Origin: Utricularia gibba
Lineage: Eukaryota > Streptophyta > Magnoliopsida > Lamiales > Lentibulariaceae
NCBI GenBank assembly: GCA_002189035.1
Contig: CM007989.1
Coordinates: 4,402,001-4,466,000, forward strand
Length of the DNA: 64,000 bases
Direction: 5' to 3'
The notes under the pieces are model-generated. The model was not told the origin of the DNA. It searched no databases and saw nothing but the letters and a program-made list of their open reading frames with translations. The translations under genes were made by a program, and so were the position numbers. Shown piece by piece: positions 10,624 to 64,000 of the stretch. How positions within the stretch are numbered: position 1 is the first letter of the stretch; the number at the start of each line of letters is the position of its first letter.

Positions 10624-13303
10624 ATGCGAGCCCTGAGAAAGGCTCTCACGAGAAGGCCCGCTTTATTCCATGGCCTCTGCGCCGCCGCCTTTTTCACTCT
10701 CGTTGTGCTAGCAATTCAGTTTGCCTTTACAGGTAACCTTGCTTCTGTTTCATCTTCCATTTTCATTCACGAACTCATCTCTTAATTGCGGATCTGTGCT
10801 CCGTTTGCAGGAAGTCGCGGCATTGCGCATTATGTGGAGGTGGATATTGGTACTTTATCTGATTTCGAAACCAATGTTCAGCAGTGTGTGGTCAGTCTCA
10901 TGCCACTCTTGCAATGTCATCATTTCCTTTTGCATTACAGCATTTTCCGAGTGACTGATGTAACATTTTCTGCGGGGAAAAAATAGTCTTCGTATTTGTG
11001 TATGTTTGATCTTTGGAGCAAAATAAAAAAAAAAACCTTTCCGTTACCAAGATTTGCCTTAGGGGGGCGATCGATAATGTTTTTTTTTTTTATCGTGGTC
11101 TTCTGGGTGATGGTTTTCCTTCTTGCAGGCAGATAGAGGCCTTGGGCTTACTGCTCAGCCTATCGATCATTGTAATTTGGTTCTCAAGTTTCCAGAGGGG
11201 ACTAATAGCACCTGGGTTTGACCCTTAAGACTCAGATACTACAGATATTTATTTTGTTTCAATGTTTGATGTCCTGTAATTATTATTTCCTTCTCGCTTG
11301 GCAGTACAATGAACAATTCAAAATATTTGAGCCCCTGGAGTATAAATATGATATTTGTGAAGCATTGCTTCTGTGGGAACAGGTATTCATCATCCTATAC
11401 CAATATGCTGATCTGCTTCTTTGGACTTCAATCAAGCCTAAATGTATCTTGATTGCAGTATCGTAATATGACCACCGTGTTGACTAGGGAATACTTAGAT
11501 GCTCGTCCTTCTGGATGGCTAGAGTATGCTCCAAAAAGGATTGCACAGTTGTATGCTAACATTTTCTTTTCTTTTCAAGTTCTTTGAATGAAGCTGACAT
11601 TGCATTTCTACCTTTCCACTCTTTTGAGGCAAGTTGATCTCCCATAATTTTTCTTTTATGTTTATTTATTGTCTTAGAGGAGAGAAAAAATGCCACAACA
11701 AGACGCTGTGTGAGGATAATCTTAATATACTTTTACCAGCAAAACCTCCTTTCCATCCCCGTCAATTTGCAAGTTGTGCTGTTGTTGGTAACTCTGGAGA
11801 TCTTTTGAAGACTGAATTTGGCAAAGAAATTGACAGTCATGATGCAGTTATAAGAGACAATGAAGCCCCTGTAAATGAGGTAGATATTTGAATGTAACTT
11901 TTATCATTTGTTTTGTTATAATGTTAATACGTGTAAGAAGGGCATTTTCTAGATACTGCTGGCATTGTATTCCTGTGTGGTTATCTGGATTTTCAATTTC
12001 CCTTCCCCGTCTTCTTCTAAGAGGCTTCATTTGGAATATTGTTGTCGTGCATTGAGAGTACTGAGATGTAAGAAATGGTGTTAATTGTTTGTGTTCATGA
12101 TGATCACCTTTACATACTCCGCAGAAATATGCCAAGTATGTTGGCCTGAAGAGAGATTTTCGCCTTGTTGTTCGGGGTGCTGCTCGTAACATGGTTCCTA
12201 TTCTCAATGGATCAGGTCTGGTATATGCCGTTGAATTAAGTAATTCTAGTAGATTCAGTGTTGGTTTGTATTATAAAGATAAGAGACATTTATCAATGAA
12301 TCCGATGTTTCTTCCTATTCCTTTGGGGACAATGGGATCCAGAACTGATGCATTGCCTTTTATTTATTCAATTGCAGATGACGAAGTGCTTATCATAAAA
12401 AGCCTCACTCATAGAGAAATCAACGCAGTGATAAAGGTAGATATGGAAGATGATAACTAAATGTGTAAGCAGATTCGATTGTCTGCTGTGCGACATATTT
12501 TACGTGCATATATCTAAGAAGCCAATTCAAACTTATCTTGCCATCACTGCAGACTCTCCCCAATCCAGTTTACCTATTTCAAGGTATTGTACTTCGTAGG
12601 GGTGCCAAGGGAACTGGAATGAAATCGATAGAGCTGGCACTTTCCATGTGTGATATCGTTGACATCTACGGTTTCACCGTTGATCCTGGATATACCGAGT
12701 GGTCATACCATTTTTTCACTGTGCTGCTTCTTCGTTTTCCCGTCTCTCCGGCTAACATAAAACTTTCTCAATGGTTCAGGACAAGATACTTCTCAACACC
12801 AAGGAAAGGGCATAATCCACTTCAAGGAAGAGCTTACTACCAACTTCTCGAATGTCTTGGTGTCAGTTTCTTACTCTTTGGGGAAGTTCAGCTTTCTCAT
12901 CTACCCTTCTCAACCTCACTTCATTTCACATATGAAGGTTATTCGCATCCATTCTCCCATGCGAGACAAAAGGAAGCAAGACTGGTCTAGTATACCCACC
13001 CGAGCAGCAATTACCAGAGCTCATGCTGCGGCCGTGCGGTTGAAGGAGAGTTCAAGTGGGCGAGAGGGGGAATCAGGACAATTTAGAAGCTGTAAAGTAT
13101 GGGGACGATCAACTAGCGACCAGGTCTCCGGCTCACCGGACATGAGTGATCGCCGGAAGAAGTCGAATTACGCCAAATGGGAACAGATGCCATTTGAGCA
13201 GCTGAGGAAGGAAGCCCAGGATCATTTCACACAGATGGAGGGCGTGTCTCTGTACAAAATGGATGGTAACAAACTGGATGATCTCGTATGCGTCAGGCAT
13301 TAG
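10624..13303 (+). CDS. GT29 sialyltransferase-like protein (SIA1/MGP2-like)
   Basis: A type II Golgi membrane protein. The start at 10624 gives a short basic tail ([12 protein letters not shown]) and a signal anchor of about 20 residues ([18 protein letters not shown]). Eleven exons can be joined in frame: 10624-10732, 10811-10890, 11129-11215, 11305-11382, 11459-11550, 11678-11879, 12125-12215, 12378-12436, 12553-12701, 12780-12861 and 12938-13303. Sialylmotif L is [11 protein letters not shown]...[14 protein letters not shown] in exon 6, and sialylmotif S is [21 protein letters not shown] in exon 9. The end [18 protein letters not shown] closes at TAG. Plants lack typical sialic acid. Arabidopsis relatives are needed for pollen function, and one GT29 member, GALT29A, is a galactosyltransferase for arabinogalactan, so the substrate here is open. 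The SIA1 assignment rests on the long basic C-terminal domain ([19 protein letters not shown]) as I recall it. The frame is intact throughout. Confidence 0.87.
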
Positions 13304-14250
13304 TCCTCAGAGCCTTCATTCCCCCCTTACAAAAGAAAAAAAAAACCATATGTATTTTACAGGATGGTTGGTTCCGTCGATCCTGACATATGAACGTGGT
13401 TCTTTGCATCTAGAGATCTTTGAAAGTGATGGGTGGGGTGTTCTAAATTTCACCTATTTCGGATTTTGGTTTTTTTTTCGAAATGTATTTAAAAGTATGT
13501 TTATTTTATTAACTGAAAATAAATAAGAACACATAAAAGCAACAGAAAATTATATATTCTGTAATGATGGTTTAAAAATATTTCTAATCATTGAGTTGAT
13601 CAGGTAATTTTAAGATTCAAATAGTTCATTATAAAAGAATAAACATATTTTTATAAAATAGGAACAATCGAATAAAATACAATTCATTTTATAAACTTAG
13701 GAGATTTAATCAATTTTTTTATTTTCTAATCTTACATAGATTAGGAATTGATTGTAATAATCTAAGATTAAGTCAAATGTTGGATTATTTTCCTCTTCCA
13801 ATAATTCTGCTATTGTAATTAAAATATTACAACATTTTTTATATGGAAAATGTGAAATGTAAAATTTTTCTGAAATTCAAACATTGGTCTATTTACATAA
13901 AAAAAAAAAGTTAATATGATATAATATGTAAAGTATTTATATAATTTTGATGATCTTATTTTTCAAAATTATTTTTTTATATAAGTTCTTTTAATGGAAC
14001 AAAATTAATTTGAAAATATAATTTATTTTAAAACATATTTGTATAATTTAATTTTTTTTTATTTAAAAATATAATAAAAAATATAAATGATTCTTTAGGA
14101 TAATATAATATTTTTTAAAAAGAATTATATAATATTCATGTACGGAAAATGCGAAAGGTTCCTGGAGTTCCGTCCTTGAGGATGGTTAAATCCGATTCTT
14201 GACTACCAAATGAAGTCTGCAGAGAAGGGAGTTTAGACTTTGGATACAAC
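13304..14250. other. AT-rich intergenic region
   Basis: Strongly AT-rich (especially 13480-14120) with long A and T runs. I see no gene or repeat structure. The first 100 bases or so are the probable 3' UTR of the sialyltransferase-like gene. Confidence 0.5.
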
Positions 14251-19343: not shown

Positions 19344-20026
19344 GGATTCACCACTGAGTACACAAAACCGCGGGCAGAACATTGACACCATGTGAACCAA
19401 GAGTTTTGTGCATGAAACCTTGACTGGGAAGGAAGATTAGCTGTTGCAAGCTGCACTACCTGTATTCCCCTGGATCTTCCTATATCATGCCTTTTGTCAT
19501 CTGCATGTCGGGCTTCCTCTGACCTTGTTCTTCTGATAATTGTTGGGGGTAATGAAAGCCCTAATGTAGCACAGTGTACATAATAGATTCAGCGGCCTTT
19601 TTTCAATGCATATCAGTCAAAATAGTAAGTCAAGAACCGAAGTGAAGATAAATAGGCAGATGACTCGCAGTTACTTGTGCAAGGCTTACACAAGAAATTG
19701 GGAAACTAAAATTGGTAACACCTGCCAAAATTATGGGTGTACGAACTGGATATATTTTTTGCCTTATTTTGTCACTCTTATTCTCTCTACTACTCTAGAA
19801 TCTTGCAAAGCTCCCTTCGCTTTTTCCAGGGCATGTATTATTACACTGCTAATATTGCTTTGACTTCATTGGGGTAACTTGGTGTTGAATTGCATCAATG
19901 TATATACATGGCGGTTTTCACAGAGTCACTGAGTTGGATATAAATGTGCACAGAAGCAACCAGGGAAACAAAACAACCTGGAGGAAATGCTAACATTTGA
20001 GTGGCAGCTGCTGGTTGTTTTGTTTG
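19344..20026. other. Convergent 3' UTR region
   Basis: The 3' ends of the NFRKB-like gene (+) and the receptor-like kinase (-) face each other across about 680 bases. No separate gene is seen. The short reading frames on the plus strand here are not conserved families. Confidence 0.5.
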
Positions 20027-22227
20027 TTACTTGGAAGCCCTGAAAAGTTGGCTTCCCAGTGTAACAACTGGGGTTCCTTCTCCCATGATTATTGTTAAGC
20101 TCATCTCCTTCTCTAGAATTCCATCCAATTCCGATACCACTTGGTTCATCGATGGCCGCCTCTCGTTCGCATTCTGCAAACACAGCACCATCAGCTGCAT
20201 CAACTCTTCCATCCCTTCTCTTGTATAACAATTTCCCAATCTCTGGTCAACTATTCTGCTTCTATCCTCAATCTCTTCTCCCACCTGCCCACATGTCACT
20301 ATTCATTAGCCTTCATCACCTGGAGTTTTCAAACACACGTGTGTTATTGTAATATTTCACACCACAACATCACGCTGCAATCAAGTCCATCTGCTATCCT
20401 CTATGTAACAGACAACAAAAAGGGGTGTGATAATGTGCCATTCTGGAGTAAAGCAACCTAGAAGTGAAAGATTATATACCCACTCTGCTATGTCTTGGCC
20501 TAGAGCAAGTTCTGAAGGCACAACTTCCTTAGCTTGACGCCCACAAACTAATTCCAGAAGAAACACCCCAAAACTGTACACATCAGATCTGTCAGAAAAT
20601 CGTCTGGACTCTCTGACCCTGCAAAGAAGTGATCACTAATTAGTGCAGTGCAAAACTGTACCATGGTATTTCAAGTTTGTATGCTATTTGAGAGAGTAAG
20701 TGGTTTTTGGTCGGTTTCCCGAGTATATAGATGAAAGATTTTGGCCTGTAGAACAAGCCTGTGCATCTTAGTTGGAAAATGTGAAATAGGAAGCATGGTG
20801 TTTACTCTGGAGCAAGAAAAATATCATGAGGAGCATTCTCTTGAGAAGAGGGGCCTCCAGTATCATATCTCCCTAGAAAATCAAGTATCCCGGCATCGGC
20901 TACTTTGGGTACGAAATCCTCATCAACCAGGACATTAGCTGTCTTGAAATCCTTGTGGATTAACTTTGGACTAAGGGAATGCAGATGGTTCAAACCTTTA
21001 AAGAAAATTTAGAAAAGCATCAATTACGTGAAATGTTCAGGAGGTGAATTCAGAAGAGTGCATATTCTATTGTACCTTGTAAGTTGTAATAACGAACACA
21101 CAAAATAATACCAGGAAAACTTAAAATACTGACTGCCTTTGCAGAAGATCACCTCTAGCAGCTCCAAGAGCTATTGCCAGCCTGTGCTTGAAGTCCAGCT
21201 TAACTGGCGCAACCTGACTCGTACCTTGGATGTAGAAACAAGTGTACATTAGATTTTCTGGTGTTGGTTAACACAAATTCTGCATGCATTTAAAGAGATA
21301 ATTACCATACAAATGGGAAGAAACACTTCCATTTGAAATAAACTCATAGACAAGAACCTGCTGCTCATTTTCTTGGCAATAACCCAGAAGGGTCACAAGA
21401 TTTCGGTGTCGAATAAATGAAAGAGAGCGAACCTGATGTAATAAGCAACGTTGATATCATAAACTAGTAAGTTCAAATGAACAGCAAACAAAGACTGGAG
21501 GACACCTGAAATAATTTCAAGTTCAGGGAATCAACATATGTCAACAGCATTCAAGTTTCTGGGGTATTACTTGAAGTCGAATTTTAGTTTCAGCAAAAGT
21601 TGTTTGTTTTCCTTTTTTGAAATAGAGAATTAAATGAATCTTGAACTAAAGGAGGCCACACTGCAGAACAAGGCCATTTGTTATCTGCTGCTTGTGAGAC
21701 CAACACCTTGAACTTGAAGCTCGTGTATCATTTTTCTTGTTACAGTTGAAGAAATGTAATCCATGAGTGAGAGATACAGATACCTCATCTGCAAACTCCT
21801 GACTCGGGGATCCATGTCGCTTTTTTATTGCTACAAGCGTCCCATCATTCAGCAATCCCTTATAAACCTCCCCAAATTTTCCTACACCAATCAAACTTCT
21901 GTCATCAAAATTTCTTGTTGCTGATGACAATTCTTCCATCTCGTATCTCCTTGCCTCGGAGGAGGCAAACTCTGTCCCCAAACCACCGCCAACTACAAGA
22001 AATCAAGTTGCACCCATTCTTCTCAACATTGCTGATATGGTAATATTATTCTAAGAACATGAAAGGAAAGGTTTACTCTGAATAGATGGATCAGAAGAGC
22101 CTGTCCCGGATCTTCTTGAAGAGTTCCTTGCTTGAAAAATGAAATGCCAAAAAATAATAATCACTATGAACACCAATGCAATGGCTCCTGCAGCACCTCC
22201 TAAAATGGCTGCAAGGTTTCTTGACAT
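20027..22227 (-). CDS. Receptor-like Ser/Thr kinase without an ectodomain
   Basis: The start at 22227 places a membrane helix almost at the N-terminus (MSRNLAAILGG, then AGAIALVFIVIIIFWHFIF). A short basic/Ser linker (SSRRSGTGSSDPSIQ) and a kinase domain follow, so the protein has essentially no extracellular part. About seven exons join in frame. The glycine loop is GVGKFGEVYKG and the VAIK lysine is present. The catalytic loop reads HKDFKTANVLVDE (non-RD, catalytic Asp kept) and the Mg loop DAG in place of [17 protein letters not shown] is complete, and the tail MGEGTPVVTLGSQLF is the family's conserved end. The splice joining FLAPE to VRESRRFSDRSD and that joining AARG to LNHLHSLSPK both use GT-AG sites. 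I recall a conserved family of short plant kinases with this N-terminus and tail, but no established substrate. It is probably active as a non-RD kinase and anchored in the plasma membrane by inference. Confidence 0.85.
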
Positions 22228-28589: not shown

Positions 28590-30938
28590 ATGAGAATGAA
28601 GGGCGCTCTCAGCGCCAGGGGATCTGCTCCAGTGCCCATAAGCGTGGCGCTGCGTCCTTCCCTTCGCGAAGCTAAACTGAGATTTCTGGTACCCAATTTT
28701 TTTTTTTTTTGGTTTGTTTTCGGTTAACTTTGATTAGAACCAAGGTATTGTGTGTGAACAGCGGTTTAGCCACTCAAGTTCAGGGATACAACATGGGAAG
28801 AACTGTCTGCGGATAACGAAAGCTTGCGTTTTGCCTGAAAATGGGCCGCTCAGTGGGTTCGATAATGCGCCCCGGAACGTTTTTTTAGAGGAGGTTTCTG
28901 CTGTCCTTTCGTTTTTGTGTGTGCATGTATGATCACGAAAGAGATGGAATGATTTATTCTTTTTGTGATTTTCGGTCACAAATGAAACTGGCACTCGAGT
29001 TTCCTTGGCCCTTTGCGGTATTTTTGAGTTATTCTGAAAATGCTAAAAAAAAGGGTTCGGACGATGCCATCTTTGGAGTTAATTCCTTGGTTTTCCGAGC
29101 AGGCAATTGGTGCAGAATATGGAGAGGGGTTTGAGACATTTCGGCCCGAAGGACCCTTAAAGTTGATGTGGTAAGCTTCAAGATGACCCCAAAAAGTTGT
29201 GTTTTTTAAATCATTTAATATTTCTTGAAATTAATTTTGGTTTTGCTGCCCCTGCAGGACTTTTTAAATGATAGGTTGCAAGAAGGATTTCTTCAGAGAA
29301 TTCGTTACGCCATGAAGCCTGACGAAGCCTATGGCCTCATATTCTCTTGGGAAAATGTTGTGGTGGGTGATTGAGTTGTATTGCGATTTCTCCCGCTGAT
29401 ATAAAGTACGCCAATTGTACAGACTCCTAACCAGGGAATATTATGTCATTGTTCAACAGGCAGACACTCGATCGCTGAAGTTGTCTGCATGGGAACAGCT
29501 TGCTTTGGAAAGTGGTATGCACATTTTGTTCCCATAGAGCATTTTTTGCGGAATGCTTCAAGGGTGATTCTTACCACGCAGAGTGGTTGGAAAGCTCCTC
29601 ATCATCTATAGATATTAGTTGGGATTCATCACCATTTACTGATGCGATTGTTGAGCACTTCCCCATAAAAATAATGCATTTTATTTATCATGCAGGAAAG
29701 TTGATTCCTGGAGATGTCAATGTGCAAAAATATTTGCTTCATGCAGATGTAGATCACGTCCTGAAAGAGGTACATGACGGTGCTATTTTTCTATGTTTAG
29801 CATCATCCATATATAGTGCCCGTGTTGTGGATCTTGGTTTAATGGTATTCCACTCGTACGTGTGAACGTTGAAGTCCTTGCCACTGAACTACTTTATGTT
29901 CGCTTCAGGTATTGCCTTGGGGAATTGGTGAGGATGATTTAACTGAATTGAAGTGCCGGCTTTCCCAAATATATCATGAAATGCTTCTCAATGTAACGTT
30001 CAAATCTCCATCTTTTAGTTTATTTTTTTCATTGAAGTACTAATTTATTGATACTTCTCAGCTTTCGGAACCAACGGAAGGATTAAAAGACTGGTTAGAA
30101 GCTGTAACCACTTCTCGCATCCCTTGTGCTGTCGTGTCAAGTTTTGAAAGAAAACACATGGTTGGCACTCTGGAACGCATGGGACTCAAAAAGTTTTTCC
30201 AGGTCATATCTTGGATGCCAATTTCCTATCACATTGTTCATGTGATCAAAGTTGACAAGAGATAAAACCTCTACGAAAAATTATTATTATTTTTATATTT
30301 GGTCATGCAGGCAATTGTCTCTGAGGAAGATGGTATGGAGTCCATAGCCCATAGGTTGCTTTCTGCAGCTGTGAAGGTTTGTCTAGCTTCATATATTATG
30401 TTTGAGTGGCATATGAAAATAGAAGTGACTTTTGGTTATGGTAGGAAGTATCTCTACTTCTTTTGTGATAGGATGCATATTTCATGCATAGTGTAGCATT
30501 GATATGTTGTCCCTGCACTCGAATAAGCAACCACATCTTGACTCTCCCAAACTTGCATCTCCTGTCACTTGTTTGGCAGCTGGACCGAAAGCCTTCCAAG
30601 TGTGTGGTGTTTGAGGATGACCCTAGAGGAATAACTGCAGCCCACAATTGTACAATGATGGCCGTCGCCTTAATCGGTGCCCATCCCGCGTAAGGATGAC
30701 AAATGTATAGAGCGTAGAGCGTCGTTGTTTTTATGCTGCCATTGTGATGATGCCTTGTTGCCCATGCAGATATCATCTCCGGCAGGCTGATCTCACCCTG
30801 TCGAGCTTCAGGGAGCTTTCGGTGATCAATCTACGCAGATTGTTCGCCGGAAAAGGTTCGGGGTTCATGGAGTTGCAGAAGCAAGTGACGGAGGGCACTC
30901 CGTCAAGGCGGAAGCTCACCATGGACACCATCTTCTAA
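28590..30938 (+). CDS. Plastid-type HAD phosphatase (PyrP2/CbbY-like), apparent frameshift
   Basis: Eleven exons are placed: 28590-28688, 28762-28893, 29103-29170, 29258-29362, 29460-29514, 29696-29769, 29909-29992, 30062-30202, 30311-30376, 30580-30689 and 30770-30938. The protein opens with a Ser/Arg/Ala-rich stretch like a transit peptide, then RIRYAMKPDEAYGLIFSWEN, IPCAVVSSFERKHMVGTLER, SEEDGMESIAHRLLSAA and CVVFEDDPRGITAAHNCTM, and ends KLTMDTIF. I recall this as the plant HAD group that includes the plastid riboflavin-pathway phosphatase; the exact ortholog is uncertain. Motif I reads FSWEN where most HAD enzymes have FDxDG. In exon 3 the frame breaks after GPLK at 29158-29162; one extra A or G would restore VDV before DFLNDRL. 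Exon 2 is taken to begin at 28762 because this keeps phase 0 with exon 1. Confidence 0.8.
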
Positions 30939-30967
30939 GCCTTGAATCACCATGGACACCACCTTCT
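30916..30967 (+). repeat. 21-bp near-duplicate spanning the HAD stop codon
   Basis: The 21 bases at 30916-30936 (beginning TCACCATGGACACCATCTTC) recur at 30947-30967 with one substitution, offset 31 bases. The second copy lies in the 3' UTR. It looks like a small local duplication. Confidence 0.75.
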
Positions 30968-32879
30968 CTTTGACTTGATGCCCTGCGCTGCTTAATATGT
31001 GTCAATGGCGTCGGATCTTCCGCCTTCTTTGGGACGAACATCCTGTGTACAGTCAACAGTGGTTGTCTGATGACGTGATTCTTTTGTAAAATCGTAGAAC
31101 GACGCACGCCGCACTGTCTTAAAATCGATCTCGATCCATTAAACGGTAAATCAATAGTTGAGATTCGACTAATTTAATTGATCAATCTAATTGTATTTTT
31201 ATAATATTATGACCCAATTTCAATTTATTGAATAATGTAATTAGGCTATTTTTTTATATTGAAATTGATTATTAGGTTTGAAGTATAGTTGATTTGTATT
31301 AAAAATACATACATTAAAAAAAATAAAGAATAATAGATATCTTAGTTGGTCACATAAAGGAATAGATATTTTCCTATCCACAATGATTAGTCTCCACCAA
31401 ATTGCCAAGGTCAGGCCCCCAACTAAGCGAATGACATGCATTCATTTTGAGAACATCAAACCAGATTTCATCTTTATATGTCTTGGCCACAGTGAATATC
31501 TGTTTGGTTAAATGGAAGAAAATAGATGAGTTTATTTTTATTTGGTATAAAAAATCCTTTGTTAACTCTTTTTAAGATTATTTTTATTCTTTGTTGCATG
31601 ATTTCAATGGATTGTTTTTTTACATACATATAATTTAATCAACCAATCAAACATACAAACAATATTTAGTTTCCTACCAAAACACTCCATATCAATCCAA
31701 CAAAGCACGTCTATAGTGATTCAAAAAACTTAATATCTTTTCTAGTTATACCACTTGATATGATACATCCCACATTTGGTTGGTGGATAGCGTCTAAACC
31801 TACATTTAATTTATTTGAATTTAAATAAATAGATGGATTTAGAAGATTATTCGTATTTAGTTGATAGATTTAATTTATTTGAATTTAGGATAATGAAGTT
31901 TTGAATGTGAGTATAAAATTAGATATATGATAAATGTATATATGAAATTAGCTATATATTACTTATCAAAAAAATCAATCATTTATGTAATAATGAGTTT
32001 TCCCACTTCCCAATAGACTCCATTTTTTGGTGTGTTCACTTGTTTGGATGTGGGACTGCCACCAGACGAGATCTTCAGCGTTCGATGCATGGGTTAGTTG
32101 TTAATTGTGCATGTTATTTCTTGTGTGAAGTTTCCTACTTAAAATTTTTTTATTTCAGAATCGATTAGTTGGTTTACGTGTTGTATGTTGTCACTGGTTT
32201 CGCTCTCTTCTTCCCCCCTGAAACCCACCACCTAATTTTCCTAACCAAATGTGCCCCCAAAGTTATGCTTCATTTGGTTATGGTTTCTTTATGCACAAAG
32301 TTATTGTAGTTGTCTTCATGATAATACATATTTTGCTAGTTATTTATATAATAAAATTTGGGTGTTTAATAATTACATTAATTATTTTATATATTATTTT
32401 AATAATTTTATAAAATCCATTTTTTTATTTTCCTAATTATTAATAACAATGTATTGAAATACATAAAATCTAATTTACATGCAAAAATTGTTGAAAGTGC
32501 AATATACGAGAAGAATACAAGATGTTCTCTTTCAATCGACCAGAATCTTTAAACTTTTTAGGTTTAAGAGATCTTAAGTCCTAACCTTGTGTTGGAAATT
32601 AGTGATCATGATCTAAGTCTTTTAAAAGATGGACTTGGATTGTAATAATATGGTAAAAGAGCAGTCAAACAAGGTTTCTTGATTGATGACTCCTAGAGTC
32701 AATAAAGAATATAAGATGGTTAGAAGAGGAACTCAAAAGTCATTAAGTATAGAATTGTCAAAGGAGTCGAGCCAAAAGTTGCGTGAAATAGAAATAGTGC
32801 CGAAGAAATCAACTTGGGTTGGAGGGGAAGAAAACATGGTGTTGGGGAACCCTAGGATAAATTCAAGCACTTGATCACT
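30939..32879. other. AT-rich intergenic region
   Basis: Beyond the HAD 3' UTR (to about 31130) the sequence is AT-rich with no recognised gene. From about 32500 to 32880 composition changes and an open plus-strand frame (32683-32874) may belong to the leader of the Gypsy relic that follows. Confidence 0.4.
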
Positions 32880-33031
32880 TGGTGCTAGAGGAAGGGCAAT
32901 TATACTATCCTATAACAGGTTGAACGGGAAGCGGCTGTGGAGGTTACGGTTCTCCGGCAAATCGTGACCACATCTGGGAGCAGCATCTTGAGGCGTAAAA
33001 AAACACATTCTAGGGATGGAAAGATTGTTGG
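32880..33031 (+). mobile_element. Gypsy gag relic, left part (interrupted by the Copia element)
   Basis: Immediately left of the Copia insertion, a plus-strand frame reads like a Gypsy gag start (REAAVEVTVLRQIVTTSG, then SRDGKIVG). The gag continues right of the Copia element at 39752. The five bases before the LTR (33027-33031, GTTGG) nearly match those after it (39752-39756, GTTAG). Confidence 0.5.
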
Positions 33032-33258
33032 TGTTCAAAGGTCGAGCAAATCTTGGGTGTAGAACGAATGCGAAGGCAACTAAAGAAAAACAATATATTC
33101 GTAATGAACTAGAACAATAGAGTAGTAGGGTACCCAGCTGTTTTATAGTTGGGTTCAATCTCGTGCTTGATGGTTAGAACTATCAAGTACAACTTACATG
33201 CTGGCACATACAATTAGTGAGATAGAGCAGTGCTTGACTTGTTATCAGTTTCTGAACA
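33032..33258 (-). repeat. Copia 3' LTR
   Basis: Bounded by TG...CA and matched base for base, without gaps, to 39525-39751. By eye there are about 24 substitutions in 227 positions (about 10-11%), so the insertion is not recent. Confidence 0.88.
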
Positions 33259-34500
33259 TTTTACCTCCCTTTCTGAAATCCATGAAGGTCCAACACCGTT
33301 GGAGGCTGAGCCCAATGGTAGAACGATGTTGGGGGAGGACTCAACCCAAGTTTTTCCATAATGGAAATGGAGATATGTTGAGAGACTTGGTAAAAACATC
33401 TGCGAGGTGTTGCTGAGATGATATGGGACGCAGCACCAAAAACCTCGTTTGTACTGATCTCGGACTATATGGCAGTCAATCTCTATATGTTTGGTTCGCT
33501 CATGAAAGATTGGATTGAAGGTAATGTAAATGGCAGACTTACTATCACAGTATAAGGAGATCGAAGTCACCATAAGGAGTCGCAAGTCCTTCAATTGGAG
33601 TCGCAGTAACCAAAAGGCTCCAAAGGCCGATTTACAAGATAGAAAAGATCGTGAGAAGCTGTGCGGGATAAGTACACCACAAACTGCAACCCAATTTCCA
33701 GGTGTGCTTCTGAGGGGTTTTGCATAAACTGTGAGAGCTGTTGAACGGGAAAAGCAATGTCTGGATGTGTAAAACTGAGGTATAATAACCGACCAATCAA
33801 GGCACGATAGGCATCTGAATTGGGAAAAGAAGGGCTGGTATCGGGGAATATGAAATTATGAGGGAGAGGCACAAGGATCTCTTGATTCCCAAAGTCATTC
33901 CCACCAAGAATCTGCACGATGTCCATCGTATACTTATGCTGCAAAAGTTGCAGCCTGTCACCTTTGCAAATGAGCTCAACACCAAGAAAATAGGTGGCTG
34001 GACCAATATCCTTAATAGTAAATTTCTGATGGAGCTGCTGCTTTAGCTCATTAATCGCCGCAAGGTCGGGACCGACAATTAAAATGTCATCCACATAAAT
34101 CACTTTAAGAAGCTGTTTGAAAAGCCTTGGAAAAACATGCAAGGGTCAGCAAGCGACTTAACCAAATCGAGAGAACATAGAAAACGGGTCAGCTCCAAGT
34201 TCCACTGTCAGGAGGCTTGTTTGAGCTCGTAAAGCAATCACTGCAGCTTGCAGACTAGGCCATTCTCAACCAAGAAAACATGTAAAAAAGCATTGTTAAT
34301 GTTAACCTGATGAATGAACCAGTTCTGTTGTGCGCTAAGAGTCAACAAAATGCGGACGGTGGTAACTTTGGTGATGGGTGCAAACTGGTCCGTAAAATCA
34401 ATCCGTTCAACCTATGTGTAAGTCGTACTTTATACCATACAATAGAGCCATTGATATTTCTCTTATCTTGTAAACCCACTTGCAATAGAGGCAAAGGAAC
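33259..34500 (-). pseudogene. Copia reverse transcriptase and RNase H (broken)
   Basis: The RT part shows the Copia active-site block VIYVDDILIVG near 34085 and then KDIGPATYFLGVEL and [20 protein letters not shown]. Upstream fragments at about 34180-34480 (NWFIHQVNINNAFL) are the N-terminal RT part with stops. The RNase H end near 33500-33420 has [11 protein letters not shown] and [17 protein letters not shown]. Frame breaks separate the pieces. Confidence 0.85.
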
Positions 34501-53060: not shown

Positions 53061-54939
53061 TTGTATCCTCTCATTCTTACACAAGTCTTCATTCTTTTAG
53101 GATACTCTAGGATTTTTCAACACACCACACTGTTTTGTCCCCGGTGTATCCACAAATGGTGGTAAAATATCAAAAAAACTCCTTTGCATACTTGAGAAGA
53201 GAAGTATAAGATTTTGTACATCTCTCTTGTACAAGATATCAAATACTGCAATAAAAGTAAATTTATTAACAATAGATTCAACAAAAATATTCAAAAAAAA
53301 TATTCAAAATGATTAATTTTGATAAGTATAAACTCGACACCAATAAGTTCAATCCACATATTCGAAAAGGGTATTGAATAAAAATATTCAATAAAAAAAC
53401 ATTCAATCATAATACATTCAATAAAAACATTCAATACAAATATTCAATAAAAATATGGAATATTTTTATTCATATTTCTTCTAGCAATACAATGAAAGAT
53501 TTACCTTTCGCCTTATCTACTTCCCTAAAATTACAATGCATTTGAGGAAATTTGATTTCCATTGGAGTACATATTCAAAAAAAACTTGTCAACAATTCTT
53601 CAAATCCTCTTCTCACATCTTTCACTAGTATCAACCCTTTTTTCCCCTTTAGGGTGTAGTGGTTCTTGTTTAGAGTCCTAGATCATACACTCACAACAAG
53701 AAAAATAACAAAATTCTATCTCAAGAGATAACTACTCACAAAGACTCACAAAGACTAACACATATGAGATAGATCTTGGAGCCAAATGAGATAAAGGAAT
53801 CTCTAAACATTCTAATATTTCTTCTAAAAAGGCCCTCATCGTCAAGAGCAGCACCAGAGCCCAGTTCAGCGCTACTATTCCGAGCTGTGAACAGTAGCAA
53901 CTGAGCGACAGAACAATCTTTATTTGCTTTTCGTTTTCTGAACGTTTCGAGTTTCTGTATTTGACTTGCTTAAAATGTTCTTATTATTTTCACCAACTTA
54001 TCTGAATGAAATCGTGTTTTATTTTTCAAGCATGAGTGGCTAAAGCCTTAAGGATATCTTAAGATGAAGTATGGTGGTGTGTGCTTAGGGTTAATAATGA
54101 TATTTAGGTTTCTTTCTTACCTCTTGATTCTATCAAGCAATAGGTAGATCTAAGGACGGAAACAAGTAGCTTCACAATTTAGATGCTTGATTTAGAGGTA
54201 GACCAACAAATCAAGACGGAAGCAGTAGGTGTTAATCCGGAGTAGAACCAGTAGAACCGAGTAGATCTAGTTCTATGTGCTTTGCATGCGGGTAGACCTA
54301 ATTGCAATGTTGGTTATGATATTGATGACTAGCTTAGTCGAAAATATGATGAATAACCTGAGTAGACTTAGGTTATTTGAAGTTGTGAGTGTAGGAATAT
54401 GGTACATCGAATTAGGCACCTTAGCATCACACTACTTGCAGATTCTTAAGGCATCTTCGTATTATTCTAAGTTAGAACCAGTACTTGTTACCTTTAGCGT
54501 TAAGACCTGATATTGTTTACTGATCTTGTTTACTGAACTTGTTTACCACTGTTGGTCCGAGTTTAGACTAAGACTTACCGTTACTTTGAATTCTGCATCT
54601 GCTGAAATACATGACAAGTGCAACGATATGCAAAAATTTACAAGCACAAGCTCCTTGTGATTAACCCCGACATCCACTATACAAGTTTTCTCAATTTGTA
54701 TTTTGTGTAAATTAGGGCTTATAAATGTATTTGATACAGAAGTTTGCTTTAATTGCAACGATGTGCTAAAATTTCCGTTTATCAGTATTTTAAATATATA
54801 CTTATGTATTGAAAAAAATATATACATAATGAAATGTTAAATTATTTTGTGAATTTTTGTTATTCTGTTTTAATATATAAATCTATTAAGTTATAGTTCA
54901 AGAAACAATCGATCACAAACAGCTTTGAGAACTCCTCGC
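53061..54939. other. Repeat-like intergenic sequence
   Basis: No gene recognised. Short direct motifs (gtagatctaagg / agtagatctagttc / gtagaccta) recur at 54140-54380. The left part continues the AT-rich transposon-like region. Confidence 0.35.
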
Positions 54940-57900
54940 ACACCACAGATTTGGGAACGTCGCCTCATCTTTACTTCTGCTTGCCCATTGCACCTTCACC
55001 GTGACTTTTGACTTGGTGGTAGTCACCCTACGGTCCAGGATGCGCACAGGCTGCGCTTGATATGTTAGGTTGTCTCTCAAATTGGTCTGGTTGGAGCAAC
55101 ACGTCTAGGTTTGCCACTGCCTTACTCAGTTGGGACACATGGAAGACATCATGCATTCCCTTCATAATTGCTGGTAGCTTCAATCTATATGCCACCTGCC
55201 CAATTCTCTCCAAGGGTCCAACCTACCTTGGTCCTAGTTTGCCAAATTTCTTCCCTCGCATTATGCCCTTCCAAGGTGACAATTTGAGGTAGACCGTGTT
55301 GCCCACCTCGAACTCCAGTGGCTTCCTTCGTACATCTGCCTAGCTTAGCTTTTCTGTCTATCACTTTCAGCCTTTCTTGTATGATGGCCACTGACTCCTC
55401 AGCTTGTTGCACCAAGTCAGGCCCTAGCATCTTCTTCTCGCCCACCTCGCTCCAGTGGAGGGTTGTCCTACACCATCGCTCATACAAGGCTTCATAGGGC
55501 GCTGTTCCCAGGCTTGGCTGCACACGAACTCCACCAAATAGACAAGTGTATCCTAGCCTGTGCGAAATTCCAGTGCACATGCGCGCAGCAGATCCTCCAA
55601 GGTTTGTATGATGCGTTCCGATTGTCCATCTCTCTTGCAGTGCCTTCCAAAAACGTGCTGTGAACTTGATGTCCCGATTTGACACGATAATTGGTGGTAC
55701 GCCATGCAACCTAACCACTTCACGCAAGTATACCCTAGCCAGCTTACCGATGTCCCAACTTGTTTGAATAGGGAGGAAGTGCGCACATTTGATGAGTCGG
55801 TCTACCACCACCCATATTGCATCTAGTCCGCCCCTTGTCTTTGGTAGTCATGAAGTCCATTGTTATGTGCTCCCACTTCCACTCTAGAATGTCCAACAGC
55901 TGTAGCATTCCAATAGGCCGCTGATGGTCGGCCTTCACATGTTGACATACCGCACACTCAGTGGGTCCACTGAGCGATCTCCTTTTTCATGCCTTCCTAC
56001 CAATAGTCTTGATGGAGATCACGGTACATCTTCGTACTCCTTGGATGGATACTAAGTTGAGAGGCATGTGCCTCCCTAAGAACTTCATGTTACAATTCCT
56101 TTACTGCAGGCACCCAAATGCGGCCACGGTAAGTTATGAGACCATCCCCACGTACCTTGTACTTGCCTTCACCCTGAGATGCCTTCGCCATGAGTTCATC
56201 CCAAGACTTATCTGCCTTTTGCGCCTCGCTAATCCTTGATAGGAGGCCAAAGTCGATCCAAAGGGTGGCGATCCTCCCTTCCAATTCTTTGAGCTTCTCT
56301 TCTAGCGCCACCTCATCGTCCTTCCTTGGGTGAACCCTGCTCAAACTATCCCCCACAACATTCGCCTTACTTGGGTGATGTAGGACCTCCACTTCGTAGT
56401 CCTTGATTAATTCAATTCCAACCATTTTGTTGTCTTAGCTCTTTCTTAGTAAAGATGTACTTCAAGCTCTGATGGTCTGTGAATAATTTGCACTGGAAGT
56501 TCCATACAGGTAGTGCCTCCATAATTTTAACACAAATACCACTATTGCCAACTCTAGGTCGTGGACTGGGTAGGCGGGATGCATAGGTTATCACCTTCCC
56601 TTACTGCATCAGTACACACCCTGTATCGTGTAGATCAAGTAGCCTACACGGGGTAAGGCCAATACAGGTGCCGTCATCAATTTCTCCTTAAGCCGCAGGA
56701 AGCTTTGCCCACATGCTTCGTCCCAATGGATGGCAGCCTCCTTGTATGTCAGTTGTGTCATGGGGCGTTCCACAAATCCCTTGATAATCGCTTATCCTTG
56801 CGAGACCAAGGAAGCTCTTAACCTCTGTGGAGGTCTTGGGGTGTCGGCCACAGTGATCTTCTTCACCTATTGATAACATGCCCAAGAAATGCTATACTTT
56901 TGAGGAAGAACTCGCACTTAGTCTTCTTGACAAACAACTTCTTCTCGCATAACACCTCCAAGGTCTGCCGAAGGTGCTGCACATGGGAGGCATCTGGAGA
57001 GTATACTAAGATGTTGTCAATGAGCACCACGAATTGGTTGAGGTATGGCTGGAAAACCCTATGCATAAAATCCATAAAGGCGGCTCATGGTGCCCATATT
57101 TGGTCCGAAACGCTGTCTTTGGGATGTTACTTTTCTTGATCTTCAGCTGGTAATATCCAGAATGCAGGTCTATCCTGGAGAATATGGATGCCCCTTGTAG
57201 CTGGTTGAACAAGTCTTCAATACGGGATAGGGGATAGCAATTCCTCACGATTACCTTGTTCAGCTTCCGATAGTCTACGCACCTTCTTCATGAATAGTAT
57301 AGCGGCTCCCCAGGGTGACACACTTGGTCTGATGAACCCTTTCCCGAGGTCTTCTTGCACCCTTTCTTGAGGTCTTCTTGCACCTTTAGTTCCTTCATTT
57401 CAGAGGATGACATCCGGCATGGTGCCTTGGTGATAGGTTCTGACCCCTCCAGTAATATGATCTCGAATTCTATTTCCCGGTCTAGCATGCATCCAAGGAG
57501 CTCTTCGGGGAACACATCTCCAAATTCCTCCAGCAAGGCTTGGACATCACCCTCGTGTCTGCGTCCCGTGATGGCCATGTAGGCTAAGACATAGAAGACA
57601 GCATGTTCACGTGCTTCCTTTTCCTTCCGTGCACATTTCCCCGTGTTGAGAATTCCCACCAGTGTCCTTGCAGCTCCACACCTTTCAGCACAACTGATTT
57701 GTGCCCCATGCTTCCCTAGCCAACTCAACCCCAGAATAACGTCAAACTCCCCAATCTCTACTTCATAGAAATTTGCCTTGCTAATCAGCCCTGTGTACTC
57801 TATGGCATGCAAGACTTCCACCACCAGCTACCTTAACTGACCTTAACTGACAGAGTTCCACCTAGACTCCTAACACAAGTCCTCGACACAAAACAATGAG

Positions 57901-58135
57901 TAGCTCCACAATCAAACAAAACAAATACGTTGTCGAGGAGTGTACTTGTGATGGTGCCACTGTCATCCTCAGCATCTTGCCTTCATGAGGTGAAAGATCC
58001 TAGCTCCAGCACGTCCCGTGGGTGGGTGCCTGTGTGATGTTGGCAGCAGCCCATTGAGTGGCATTCGCTCTGATAAGTGACACCCTAGACGCCCCCATCT
58101 TCCAAGGATCTACTGAAGACACCATGATGGGTGCG
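54940..58135 (-). mobile_element. Ty3/Gypsy retrotransposon pol (protease to integrase), degenerate
   Basis: From right to left on the minus strand: a gag/protease end with FDCGATHCFVS (aspartic-protease site, about 57930) and FDVILGLSWLGKHGAQIS; RT with [30 protein letters not shown] and LIDNILVYS (YxDD changed to IDNI); RNase H with [14 protein letters not shown]; the integrase zinc-binding part and core; and a C-terminal segment HDVFHVSQLSKAVANLD. All are broken by stops and frameshifts. The integrase lacks about 45 bases between ALQER and DGQSERIIQTLEDL. No LTRs were found at its ends. Confidence 0.87.
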
Positions 58136-58151
58136 TATCCCCCATCTTCCA

Positions 58152-58605
58152 TTCCGCATACGACCGGCGTGCATCATCGGCCCCCATTCGCTTCCCTACT
58201 GACAATTTCAAGCACTCTTTAACTCTCTTTTCAAAGTCCTTTTCATCTTTCTCTCGCGGTATTTGTTTGGTCTCTCACCCGTATTTAGCCTTGGATGGAA
58301 TTTACCATCCGATTGAGGCTGCATTCACAAACAACCCGACTCGCCGACAGCACCTTATGGTGGGATAGGGTTTGAGCACGACGAGACTGTCACCCTCTCT
58401 GGTGCCCCTTTCTAGGGGACTCAGGCCCGGTCCGTCGCTGAGGACACTTATCCAGACTACAATTCAATCAATAGGGTCGTGCGATTCTCAAGTTGGACTA
58501 TTCCCAATTCGCTCGTCGTTACTAGGTGAATCCTCGTAAGTTTCTTCTTCTCTGCTTATTGATATGCTTAAATTCAGCAGTTAATCCCGCCTGACCTGGG
58601 GTCAC
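58152..58605 (-). rRNA. 26S rRNA 5' fragment, degenerate
   Basis: The reverse strand from 58605 matches the start of plant 26S rRNA (gaccccaggtcaggcgggat, then taagcatatcaataagc). The conserved blocks 'gtagtctgga', 'cggaccgggc', 'ggctaaatacggg' and 'gatgaaaaggactttgaaa' follow, up to 'gaagcgaatgggggccg'. About 455 bases are present. Many differences from the canonical sequence are C-to-T or G-to-A, and a few bases are deleted, so it is a silent fragment, not an rRNA gene. Confidence 0.92.
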
Positions 58606-58735
58606 GAATGAGGGCGCCCCCTTTATCAAGGGGAGAGGGGGTGAGAGGGCTCACCAGCATTTCTTGTGGTTGGGTTGCTCGACAGGTGAGCATGCGCGCT
58701 TACGGGTCCCTTGAGCCTTCAGCTACGAGTGCCTG
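58606..58735 (-). other. ITS2-like sequence adjoining the 26S fragment
   Basis: The bases that precede the 26S start on the minus strand are GC-rich (for example gtgagccctctcaccccctc) and lie where ITS2 belongs. ITS2 varies too much for a match by eye, so this is by position. Confidence 0.5.
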
Positions 58736-58757
58736 CATCAATCAATGTGAAGGGCTC

Positions 58758-61700
58758 CTAGAGTCGAGCTAAAGGATACAGATGAAGGAAGCTGGGGGAG
58801 ACGCCGAATCCTCCTATTGAATTTGGAGCATCGATGATGGGAGAGTATGCTTTTGTCACTTTCCTCCGCAGCAAGTCCTGGGCATCCAGAATGTTAAAAA
58901 TCATATTAGTTGGAACAGCTCCATAGGTAAAAATGTTCTTCATTCTTCTAACGTGAAAAGCAGAAAGATGAACCAAGTTCTGTGTTCCTAAGACGAATGA
59001 GAACCATACCATGGGCAGTCCGGATCTATATGTTGATCTTGCTAACTCAATTGCATTATACACATCAAATGCTTGACTAGTATCCCGGGAACACTTTGTG
59101 GTGCGGGTTTGATCCTTTGCATTCTGGGGCAACTGATGGGTCTTGAAGCTGAGACTTATTATCAGACATTTGTTGTACAGATGAAAGGCTTCGGGATGAC
59201 AGGGTGGGTGATTCATTTTAGGGGCTGCTTCTGATCCTCCCATGTCACGCTCAATGCTCACCCGCAACCTCCTGCATGCAAGCGACAAAGAAGAAAAAGG
59301 TCCAAATTGGATCAACTGCGCCCAAAACTGAATCATCCACACTAGCAAAAAAACCAAAACTGATGGCGAGTTTTAACAAGCCTTGAAGGCAGTGTAATGT
59401 TTAATATTCCCTAGCAGTGAATAATGCAATATTAATCATGAAAATGTAGGCATCAAACTAAATAAACATGAAATGGTTCATATATCACGAGGTATCGCAC
59501 ATAATTACATGAACAGCATGACAAATTACATGAGGCTATGGTTTATCAACAATAGTGTAGTCATATTCAAGAGAACTTTCTAAACCTTTTTGTTCGCTCT
59601 TGAAACATCCAGAATGAAGAAACATGGTTGCCGGATGCAATATTTAAAATAAGAACAGGATCCTGACATACCAAAAAAGAAAAATGACACCGTTCAATGG
59701 TTTTTTTTTTTTTGTTTTTATCAGCAAAACAATTTCATTAGTAAAAAATTAGGGATAAGCCAACGTATAAACATGATTAAGATGACAAATAAATGAACAA
59801 AAAGAGATTAACTTTTCCATTACCCAACCACCTTGAACAGAAATCATTAGAAATATCGGATTGCGTATATCAGCAGAATAAATGTGAATCATCCCTCGTG
59901 CTGAAACCAAATCCTGCCCCCTTTCTATGTTTTTACCTTCTCTTAACCTTTCCCAGATTTTGAATTCTAAAGAACAAGGAAGTCTATTCTCCAACCTCAG
60001 AGGAGAACTAATACAATCAAATACAGGAAGACTAAGATCAGTATAAAGCATGGATGCATCAGTGCCAATAGAGAGCCAAAACAATTTTCCATTTGATCCA
60101 GCGCAACACCAAAGGATGCCCCTCTTCTCAAGCTGATCCAATCTTAAAGGATTAATTGATGCCTTAATTCCATGTCTTGAGGAACTCTGATGAGAAGGCA
60201 AGCCTTCAGCAGTAGATAAAGAACTGTTATTTACAGAAATCGGTTGGCCCCAAGAATATGATGTTTGAGAATTATCAATGAGTGGACGGAACTGAAGACA
60301 CTTAACAGAATTTATGGGCATACTACTCAAGGGAAGAGAATATGTGCATCCAGGGCATAACATCGTGTCAATGTTCTTTCTTATGGTGGAACCTTCATCA
60401 ACTGCTTGCCTTGTACGGATCCACCGCCTTCGCCACACCATATCATGTGCTGACTTTACTCCTGATCTCAGAGAATTTGGTGGCCACTTTAAACTTTGAA
60501 AATAAACCGCATAAGCCCATCCCTCAGCATCAACAAACTGAGATTTTTCAATAGCCCATGATGATGATTCAACCCACACCCATCCCATGGGAAGAGGAGG
60601 CTCAAAAAATTCCTTCAAGGAATCAATACAAGCAAATGTTACTGTAAGAAAAAAGTAAAATAGATGAAAGTCTAGGAGATGCTCACTTCAAAAGAATAAC
60701 TGAAATCTCTATTGCTCCAATGACCTACATCACATTCATTGCTTCCCCAGCCTAATACTGGATGATATTTTTTGGTTTTCAAAAATCTCTTCAACATCAA
60801 TGTTCTTATGGCATGTCCCGGCTGAACTATCATGACCCGTGACCATGGAGATGCTGCATGTCGTTATGTTCAATTTGACATCAGAATCATTTGAAACCAT
60901 GGCAAGCGTCCTGAAAACTGCATGCTTGATGCCATTTTTCATAGAAACCTCCATTGCCACAAAATCCTCTTGTACTTTCTGAGCATTAACTGATAGGGGA
61001 AGCAATGAGCGGAAACCATCCCATGGACCTTCGGGCCTTAGTGCAATCCAGAAACCCATCTCTTCACCTAAATGACTTCCATCAGTCTCACTAGGGTAGG
61101 CTGTTGTCACATTCTTCCCCACATAGCAAGTTGAGACAAAAAGGCAACACTGTGAATGTACTTCATCAAGCTCTCGGCCGTTGAAAGAGTCAAACCAAAA
61201 AAAAAAAAAAATTATACCATACTCAGCTAAGAGAAATAACAATGAATTTCTCTAAGTACCTTTCTTTTTAGTGGATAAGATATAAGGCCTTCACTATCGG
61301 ATGCTTCATGAAGTGATTTCACAGAAGTAACCTTTCTCAGCATGCTAGTGCTATTCACCACAGAGAAAGAACAAGACCCACAACCTCACCTAATATTCAC
61401 CAGCAATACAGTGTTAGTACAAATAGAAAGACCAAACAAAAAAAGCACAAAACAAAATGCAGTTTTAGTTAAACTTTCGAACTGGTACTAACACTTGACT
61501 AATCCAGTTCGAAAATTATGGGATAAGAAACAAAATAAATTATTTACGTGGATTAGAATACCATGAAAAAAAAACAGTAAACATCAAACTACCATCATTT
61601 GTCAGATGAAAATGAAAAGGAAATGCGGAATTTATGATAAGTGCCCACATCAAAGAGTGAAGCCATGGGAAAAAGAGTGGAAGAGTATTAATGAAAATCG

Positions 61701-64000
61701 AGATCTGGAATATTGACAATCTATGCACTACACACAATACCTTTACCAGCCTTAGCAGAAAGATTTGTAATTTCCACCTCCAGTTTAGCACTTGCCTGCA
61801 ACAATAAAAATTTCTCTTTGTACATAAGCACATACTGAAAGATCTATTGGAAAGATAACAAGCAATCAAGTACATGATATATAACACAAATAAATTATTA
61901 CATATTTGAGTTTTACTACAACTAAAACCATGTGCACAATTTGAAGCAACAAATGTACTTTGAAATTGAAAGAGCATTTGTGTATACCCATCATAGCAAC
62001 TGAACATCAAAGCCACTTAATCAAGATAAAAATTTTATTCTTCTATTTTTTTAAAAAATTGGCTGTAAATCCATCCAAATGTAAGATGAATCAGGATTCC
62101 ACTGTATTCCAATTTTCAGCACCCTTAAAATGGCTTGTTTTATCATAGATTAGTGTGCCTGAAGGCCAAAAAGCTTTCAAAATTATACCTTTTGAGGAAT
62201 TTAAAAAATGAACAATTCATTCCATTCAGCCGTGCCTTCATCCAAGCCATTCACTTCGGTAGTTGACATTTTGACACATTTTGTTCTTGCACTTTGAGGA
62301 AAAGGCTTTGGCAAATTTGCGTCTTGATTCTCAACCAGCAAACGCAAAGCACAGAAAATGTTTTGACTATTTCCATCATCAACAAGAGGTAAACCCTGAA
62401 AGGTCAAAAAATATAGAATCCAAATAAAGTTCACAACTATAAATTAAATGCTTTAAGTGACCAACCTTTGCTTTTACTACTTGGACACTGATATAGCATC
62501 TAGGTTCCCTTGATTCATCAGAAACATTTAACCTGTTAGAATACTTAGAGGGTGGCATACATAGAGTTGCATGATTATCATGATGTAGTAATTCAAAGCC
62601 TTTGAAGTCCTGCTGACTTTTCCTCAGATATAAATCACACCCAAGTTCATTTTGCACTATCACGGTCTGGAAATCATCTTCATCCAAAGCACGATAGCAT
62701 GACTTTGGTTCAGATATGTTTGGAACAGCAGAATCCTGAATGCATATAAACAATAAAAAACAGTACAAAAAGCATAACCTATAATCAGCACTAGAATGTA
62801 AGTTTTCTTGCAACCTCATACAGCATAATGGCTTTCTCTTCAAATTCCCTCTGTTTTCTCCAGGAATCCAATGTTAGACCAAAAGTATCAAAATTGGCAG
62901 CACTAAGATTCACATTAAGAATACTTGTCACAGCAATTCTCATTCTTTTATCAATTCTTGCTGATTGGCCTGAACTGTTATCGTACATTTCAATCCTACG
63001 ATATGAAACAATGATCGTTTAGAGTAGTAAGATTATGAATAGCATAGCATGAAATCACCAAAATGTGATGAATATAACTCAAATCCGAATGTAGAAAACT
63101 CAATAAGAGAAAGATAAAATGGGCCTATAATTCTTACTTCAAAATCCCATCAAATGGCTTGATAAGTGGCTCCCATGCTTCTAACTGAATATTAAAAATT
63201 GATGAGGCAAAAGAGGAAATCAGCACAGCATTCATTGCCTCAAGTCTTCCATGTGTTGCTAGTTTGATGTTTGTAATTGTGGCATCAAAAAGTGGAGTAA
63301 TCTAAAAAGAGCATACGAGACATAAAAGATCAACATATTGGCATTTCAAGAAAAAATCTAGATTAAGGACAATATTAATATGCGAAGAGCAACCATGCCA
63401 CACAAGCTGTCCAATATAGTCAAAGATAGGCATCTGATTTTCATCTCTGCTGTTATATTGTCCTTTGTTTTTGGCTTCGCTGAGTACCCTATAGAAAATG
63501 CTAATTTGTTTGATGGCTTCTTCAGATCTGATCGAGCAAGAAATGTGCTGGCCTGCAGAAATAATGGAAACTGGGATCAAGGGAAAAATGGATCTTCTGT
63601 TTAGTGGTAAACGTGACATAAATTAATAAAATCCATGAGGTCATGTGTCAAAAGCAATGATGCTGCTGATTGAAATCTAGTTTTTTTTATGGAGCTTACT
63701 TGGTTTCCAACTTTTCAAATACTCAAGGTCTGAGCAGCTTTTGAATTAGGTACTCTTGAGATAGGTGTGTCAACGATATCAGCTTGGTTGACTAAATCCA
63801 TTCTTGGACAGCACAACAATTCTAGAGATGGTGCTTCATCCTGTTGAGTCACCACACATCCTAGAGAAGCATAACCAGGAGGGGCAATAGGGTACCAGAA
63901 GAAAGCTTCCTTCTGGCCCCTCTTCCCAATTTGAGCAACTTTTGTAAATTGAACAAGTTTTGCAGAAATCTCAGAGTTATCAGACTTGAAAATGATGCCT
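58758..64000 (-). pseudogene. SHRUBBY-like VPS13 gene, 3' part, internally deleted
   Basis: VPS13 proteins are long bridge-like lipid-transfer proteins; SHRUBBY is a plant member linked to root growth. Exons read right to left: FFWYPIAPPGYASLGCVVTQ (63.9 kb); FLARSDLKKPSNKLAFSIG (63.5); ATITNIKLATHGRLEAMNAV (63.25); RIAVTSILNVNLSAANFDTF (62.95); GCDLYLRKSQQDFKGFELLH (62.6); FPQSARTKCVK and EWNELFIF (62.3-62.2); KLEVEITNLSAKAGKG (61.8); LRKVTSVKSLHEASDSEGL (61.3); EEMGFWIALRPEGPWDGFRS (61.05); then WAIEKSQFVDAEGWAYAVYF and RRRWIRTRQ (60.5), ending GMIHIYSADIRNPIFLM (59.87). The next recognisable exon, RRLRVSIERDMGGSEAAPK (59.28), is followed at once by CSRDTSQAFDVYNAIELARS and KVTKAYSPI, which belong to the extreme C-terminus. 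The conserved part between them is absent. A TGA at 63715-63717 replaces an expected Trp codon. The 5' part lies beyond the window. Confidence 0.83.

Follow-up and report, generated by a model that had tools for sequence, protein, structure and literature searches.

In plants, C2, PH and Vps62 domains are typical of VPS13M1 and VPS13M2 (At4g17140 and At1g48090, respectively), and At1g48090, also designated AtVPS13a, comprises 4132 aa (PMC7613979, PMC11712023). The C2 domain of this subfamily is inserted close to the VAB region, and Vps62 is a beta-tripod domain. SHRUBBY/VPS13S (At5g24740) has no accessory domains beyond those of yeast Vps13 and is devoid of C2 and Vps62 (PMC7613979). The PH domain, which resides in the RBG4/5 loop, is detected by Pfam in VPS13M1 only and by HHpred in both M1 and M2 (PMC7613979). 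With regard to gene loss in plants, short repeats have been found to flank gene deletions in maize (PMC2893956), and our literature search retrieved no paper on plant VPS13 pseudogenes. At the locus described here, located within a window of 64,000 nucleotides (the whole stretch of DNA that was analysed; Utricularia gibba contig CM007989.1, here C1, positions 4,402,001 to 4,466,000), sequence comparison strongly suggests the presence of a dispersed, intron-containing, DNA-level duplicate of a VPS13M/AtVPS13a-type gene, which would now be a pseudogene and whose founder would have been joined to rDNA, multiplied and eroded by deletions.

The original prediction had suggested a search for an intact copy elsewhere in the genome, and an apparently intact gene was indeed found at C304:901849-925958. 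For this locus our own simple Viterbi gene finder (self-trained and splice-aware, with small exons possibly misplaced) predicted 64 exons in a single open frame of 4119 aa starting with MFEAHVLHLLRKYLGEY, and the locus holds every part that is absent from the window copy. In the predicted protein, Pfam identified VPS13_N (residues 1-514), Vps62, VPS13_M, C2, VPS13_VAB and VPS13_C, all above the cut-off, scoring 307 bits for VPS13_N at the start, 68.1 bits for Vps62 (cut-off 22.1), 27.4 bits for C2 (cut-off 22), and 62.6 and 40.6 bits for VAB and VPS13_C near the end. Pfam, which is reported to find the PH domain in M1 only, did not identify one in the middle of this protein. The parent shares the VPS13 family, VAB and the C-terminal domains with SHRUBBY/VPS13S; however, the latter has a plain, yeast-like layout, and the presence of both C2 and Vps62 in a protein of about 4.1k aa argues for a VPS13M-like parent instead. 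Judged by domain layout and size against the published descriptions, it appears closest to VPS13M2/AtVPS13a, with which it has VPS13_N, Vps62, C2, VAB and VPS13_C in common, whereas the window copy, disrupted along its whole length, retains neither the N-terminal core nor the greater part of the C-terminal quarter. Thus, of the SHRUBBY-like VPS13 gene originally predicted, the VPS13 family assignment stands, while the SHRUBBY identity was dropped.

On the minus strand of the window, which carries all features of the copy listed below, an open frame of 204 aa at 58758-59372 reads RRLRVSIERDMGGSEAAPK, followed by about 33 residues that match nothing in frame and then by AKDQTRTTKCSRDTSQAFDVYNAIELARSTYRSG; a Pfam scan of this frame gave no match. 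Alignment to C304 revealed two junctions at which 1568 and 3174 bp of the parental gene are gone. The remnant of parental exon 51 (RRLRVSIERDMGGSEAAPK), the first 56 of 448 bp, occupies 59216-59271 and ends at 59216, where the first junction (59216-59219; 1568 bp lost) displays a 4-bp microhomology, AAAA. It is followed by 97 bp left over from exon 55 (59123-59219), with 97% identity to L004, and, across the second junction (59122-59123; 3174 bp lost, no microhomology), by the last 39% of exon 63 (AKDQTRTTKCSRDTSQAFDVYNAIELARSTYRSGLP; 59010-59122), which sets in mid-exon. The linker residues that separate APK from NAKDQ stem from this scrap of exon 55, whose reading frame is shifted. In gene-orientation coordinates of C304 the loss covers 28933-30500 and 30598-33771, that is, exons 51-63 minus the scrap of exon 55, and the coding sequence removed amounts to 88% of exon 51, exons 52-54, 82% of exon 55, exons 56-62 and 61% of exon 63. 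Summed over these exons, about 877 residues are missing relative to the parent, in good agreement with the 800-900 C-terminal residues and the genomic deletion that had been proposed. The supposed direct run into C-terminal residues does exist as one open frame, but there are two junctions with 97 bp of exon 55 between them. A small exon between GGWVMEK and RRLRV, previously regarded as absent, is actually present with normal AG/GT borders at 59586-59662 (exon 50; DPVLILNIASGNHVSSFWMFQERTKR). KVTKAYSPI is encoded by exon 64, the last one (ALLRRKVTKPYSPI... in the parent), which is located at 58741-58877, is preceded by a normal intron and carries a 1-bp deletion in the window copy. The 3' flank of the parental gene is included in the duplication at 58630-58740, and homology to C304 stops at 58630. 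In the part of the window from 59586 to 64000, remnants of exons 40-50 and the introns align to C304 at 95-97% DNA identity.

The window copy extends past the right edge of the window to C1:4477225, and in five aligned blocks its exons and introns are 95-97% identical to those of C304. As the introns are kept, a retrocopy was ruled out; homology continues from about 240 bp upstream of the ATG to about 110 bp past the stop and, together with a disabled frame and unconstrained coding change, this corresponds to a duplicated (unprocessed) pseudogene. Two further coding deletions lie beyond the window, at 11313-13556 and 20009-20886 in gene-orientation coordinates of C304. The former takes exons 4-11 (codons ~71-359), and the latter, with a 25-bp filler, removes exon 31 and part of exon 32, so that in total 1313 of the 4119 codons are missing. 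At least 12 indels shift the frame, in-frame stops occur at parental codons 2256 and 2584, and splice sites have been lost at three exons (21, 48 and 49). Exon 3 contains one extra G at its border, and the remnant of exon 4 runs into a TAG after five codons (parental codon ~73). Because of the latter two changes and the loss of the VPS13_N core and of most of the region from VAB to VPS13_C, a working VPS13 would be very unlikely to be produced from this copy.

To place the copy within the genome, the assembly was searched (100 Mb in 516 contigs, with C1 covered to exactly 8.5 Mb and the assembly therefore possibly incomplete). A search with the C-terminal piece identified related places on C451, C66, C460 and C304; searches with exons 55 and 49 identified places in the same set and one diverged VPS13 gene on C98, and parental exons 32-33, used as a DNA query, matched the five places of parent and copies and no others in the assembly searched. 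A search of the assembly for the VPS13_C family yielded a single exon only, from another VPS13 gene, since matches come exon by exon. The copy on C451 (3399.6-3418.1k) is without 1118 codons and that on C460 (141.3-156.4k) without 1212 codons, and the positions of the deletions differ among these two and the window copy. The 44-kb contig C66 matches C451 at 99.7% identity and probably represents its other haplotype. The copies on C1, C451 (with C66) and C460 all pass into nuclear rDNA at one and the same base (58630 of the window), the form on C460 being shortened by a deletion, and in the junction alignment this fusion is absent from the C304 parent. In the window, the nuclear rDNA fragment spans 58095-58629 on the minus strand and comprises the end of ITS2 and the 5' part of the LSU (Rfam LSU_rRNA_eukarya, 274 bits for 58095-58581). 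It is a degenerate insert fused to the 3' end of the pseudogene. Beyond it, a patchy retroelement-like flank at 54912-57938 (minus strand) is common to the C1 and C451/C66 copies.

The three copies also allowed a comparison of substitution rates. On their branches, coding and non-coding sites have changed to virtually the same extent (170/4613 vs 127/3339, that is, 3.7% vs 3.8%; ratio 0.97, p = 0.81), whereas on the branch between parent and founder the coding rate is halved (44/4613 vs 63/3339; ratio 0.50, p = 0.0005), as expected if one gene is under constraint while three pseudogenes evolve freely. Similarly, rough dN/dS estimates are 0.73 on the branches of the copies and 0.25 on the branch connecting C304 and the founder, and the mix of silent and replacement changes differs between the two sets of branches (p = 0.003). 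The value of 0.73, still below 1, may reflect a short period of early constraint or errors in the gene model.

Two readings would assign the locus a different status. A truncated VPS13 variant that has been kept for a new use might be considered, as the frame stays open across the double deletion, from exon 51 to exon 63. However, since the rest of the copy is broken by frameshifts, stops and lost splice sites, openness at this position is most likely a matter of chance; the disruption affects many upstream exons, exons 4-11 are absent, a TAG occurs early, and coding sequence has changed as fast as non-coding sequence on the branches of the copies. We therefore give this possibility hardly any credence. 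Only marginally less improbable is an assembly artefact in which the window locus would be the C304 parent or an allele thereof, its exons having been dropped by collapse or misassembly. Haplotype duplicates are probably present in the assembly, as the near-identity of C66 and C451 indicates, but in the stretches common to all four copies the window copy has 48 coding and 34 non-coding sites private to it, it possesses its own 5' flank and a set of deletions unlike that of every other copy, and an allele or collapsed version of C304 would be without the rDNA join.

As for the spread of the copies, the common VPS13-rDNA junction points to one founder, and sites that group any two copies number only 7, 5 and 3, compared to 82-120 private sites per copy, which argues for a near-simultaneous, star-like split. 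Most probably, a single founder duplicate became fused with rDNA and retroelement sequence, and the resulting block would have reached at least three places nearly simultaneously, through duplication that was either segmental or element-mediated. Transport of the VPS13-rDNA-retroelement block by a gene-capturing mobile element, such as a Helitron, would be compatible with a pseudogene and would account for its occurrence on three contigs with one common 3' junction and a near-simultaneous split. However, precise ends on both sides and common termini, as expected for such elements, were not observed: in C304 orientation, 5' homology starts at 9799 in C1, at about 9705 in C451 and at 14251 in C460, the surroundings of the whole block showed neither element ends nor target-site duplications, and the common 3' flank is patchy. 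Capture is hence an unlikely, though not negligible, route. Slightly less likely again is that the composite of the 24-kb gene, rDNA and retroelement itself was the duplicating unit, reaching at least three places nearly at once in a manner other than ordinary tandem or segmental duplication. On the 5' side, the flanks of the copies gave only matches to repeat families at 68-85%, with no common ancestry seen. The rDNA flank is 14-20% divergent between copies, compared to about 3% in the VPS13 part, and 72-83% of the changes are transitions; this excess would be explained by a faster, transition-biased decay, as fits methylated sequence. The feature is an ordinary decaying duplicate, the shared rDNA join being mildly curious.

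Following multiplication, each copy would have been shortened at short direct repeats, either through end joining or through illegitimate recombination, and the gap of 877 residues would be the result of two such deletions. Among the three copies, 11 simple deletions showed a mean microhomology of 2.8 bp, compared to 0.74 bp expected for randomly placed breakpoints of similar deletion size, and none of 20,000 simulations reached the observed mean. Such an excess is commonly left behind by end joining or illegitimate recombination, as described for gene loss in plants (PMC2893956). The process resembles maize fractionation in that deletions remove exons and are bordered by short repeats (PMC2893956). 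In contrast to the whole-genome homeologs of maize, the copies here are dispersed duplicates, and while deletions of 5-178 bp are typical in the maize study (PMC2893956), several of those described here are 1-3 kb in size. The three copies provide a small natural record of the erosion of a large duplicated gene, consisting of one starting sequence, three independent sets of microhomology deletions and an open parental reference. Their main relevance, however, is for annotation hygiene, since they might be listed as short VPS13 genes and then taken for functional variants.

Further observations concern the copy on C451 and other VPS13 genes. At C451:3399697-3400382, within the 5' flank of the copy on C451, we observed an insert of about 685 bp that resembles a non-autonomous hAT element: its ends read TAGAGCTGGG...ACCTCTA, it contains tandem repeats, and 8 bp of target sequence (CTTGCCAC) are duplicated. 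A Helitron-like precise 5' end, considered as the starts in C1 and C451 seemed to lie within 13 bp of each other, was discarded because homology in C451 resumes past this insert. Within parental exon 14 of the same copy (~C451:3402166-3402239) there is a tandem duplication of 72-74 bp. More diverged VPS13-type genes are located at C98:974-995 kb, C451:578-597 kb and C510:59.4 kb, and one of these may be the true SHRUBBY/VPS13S.
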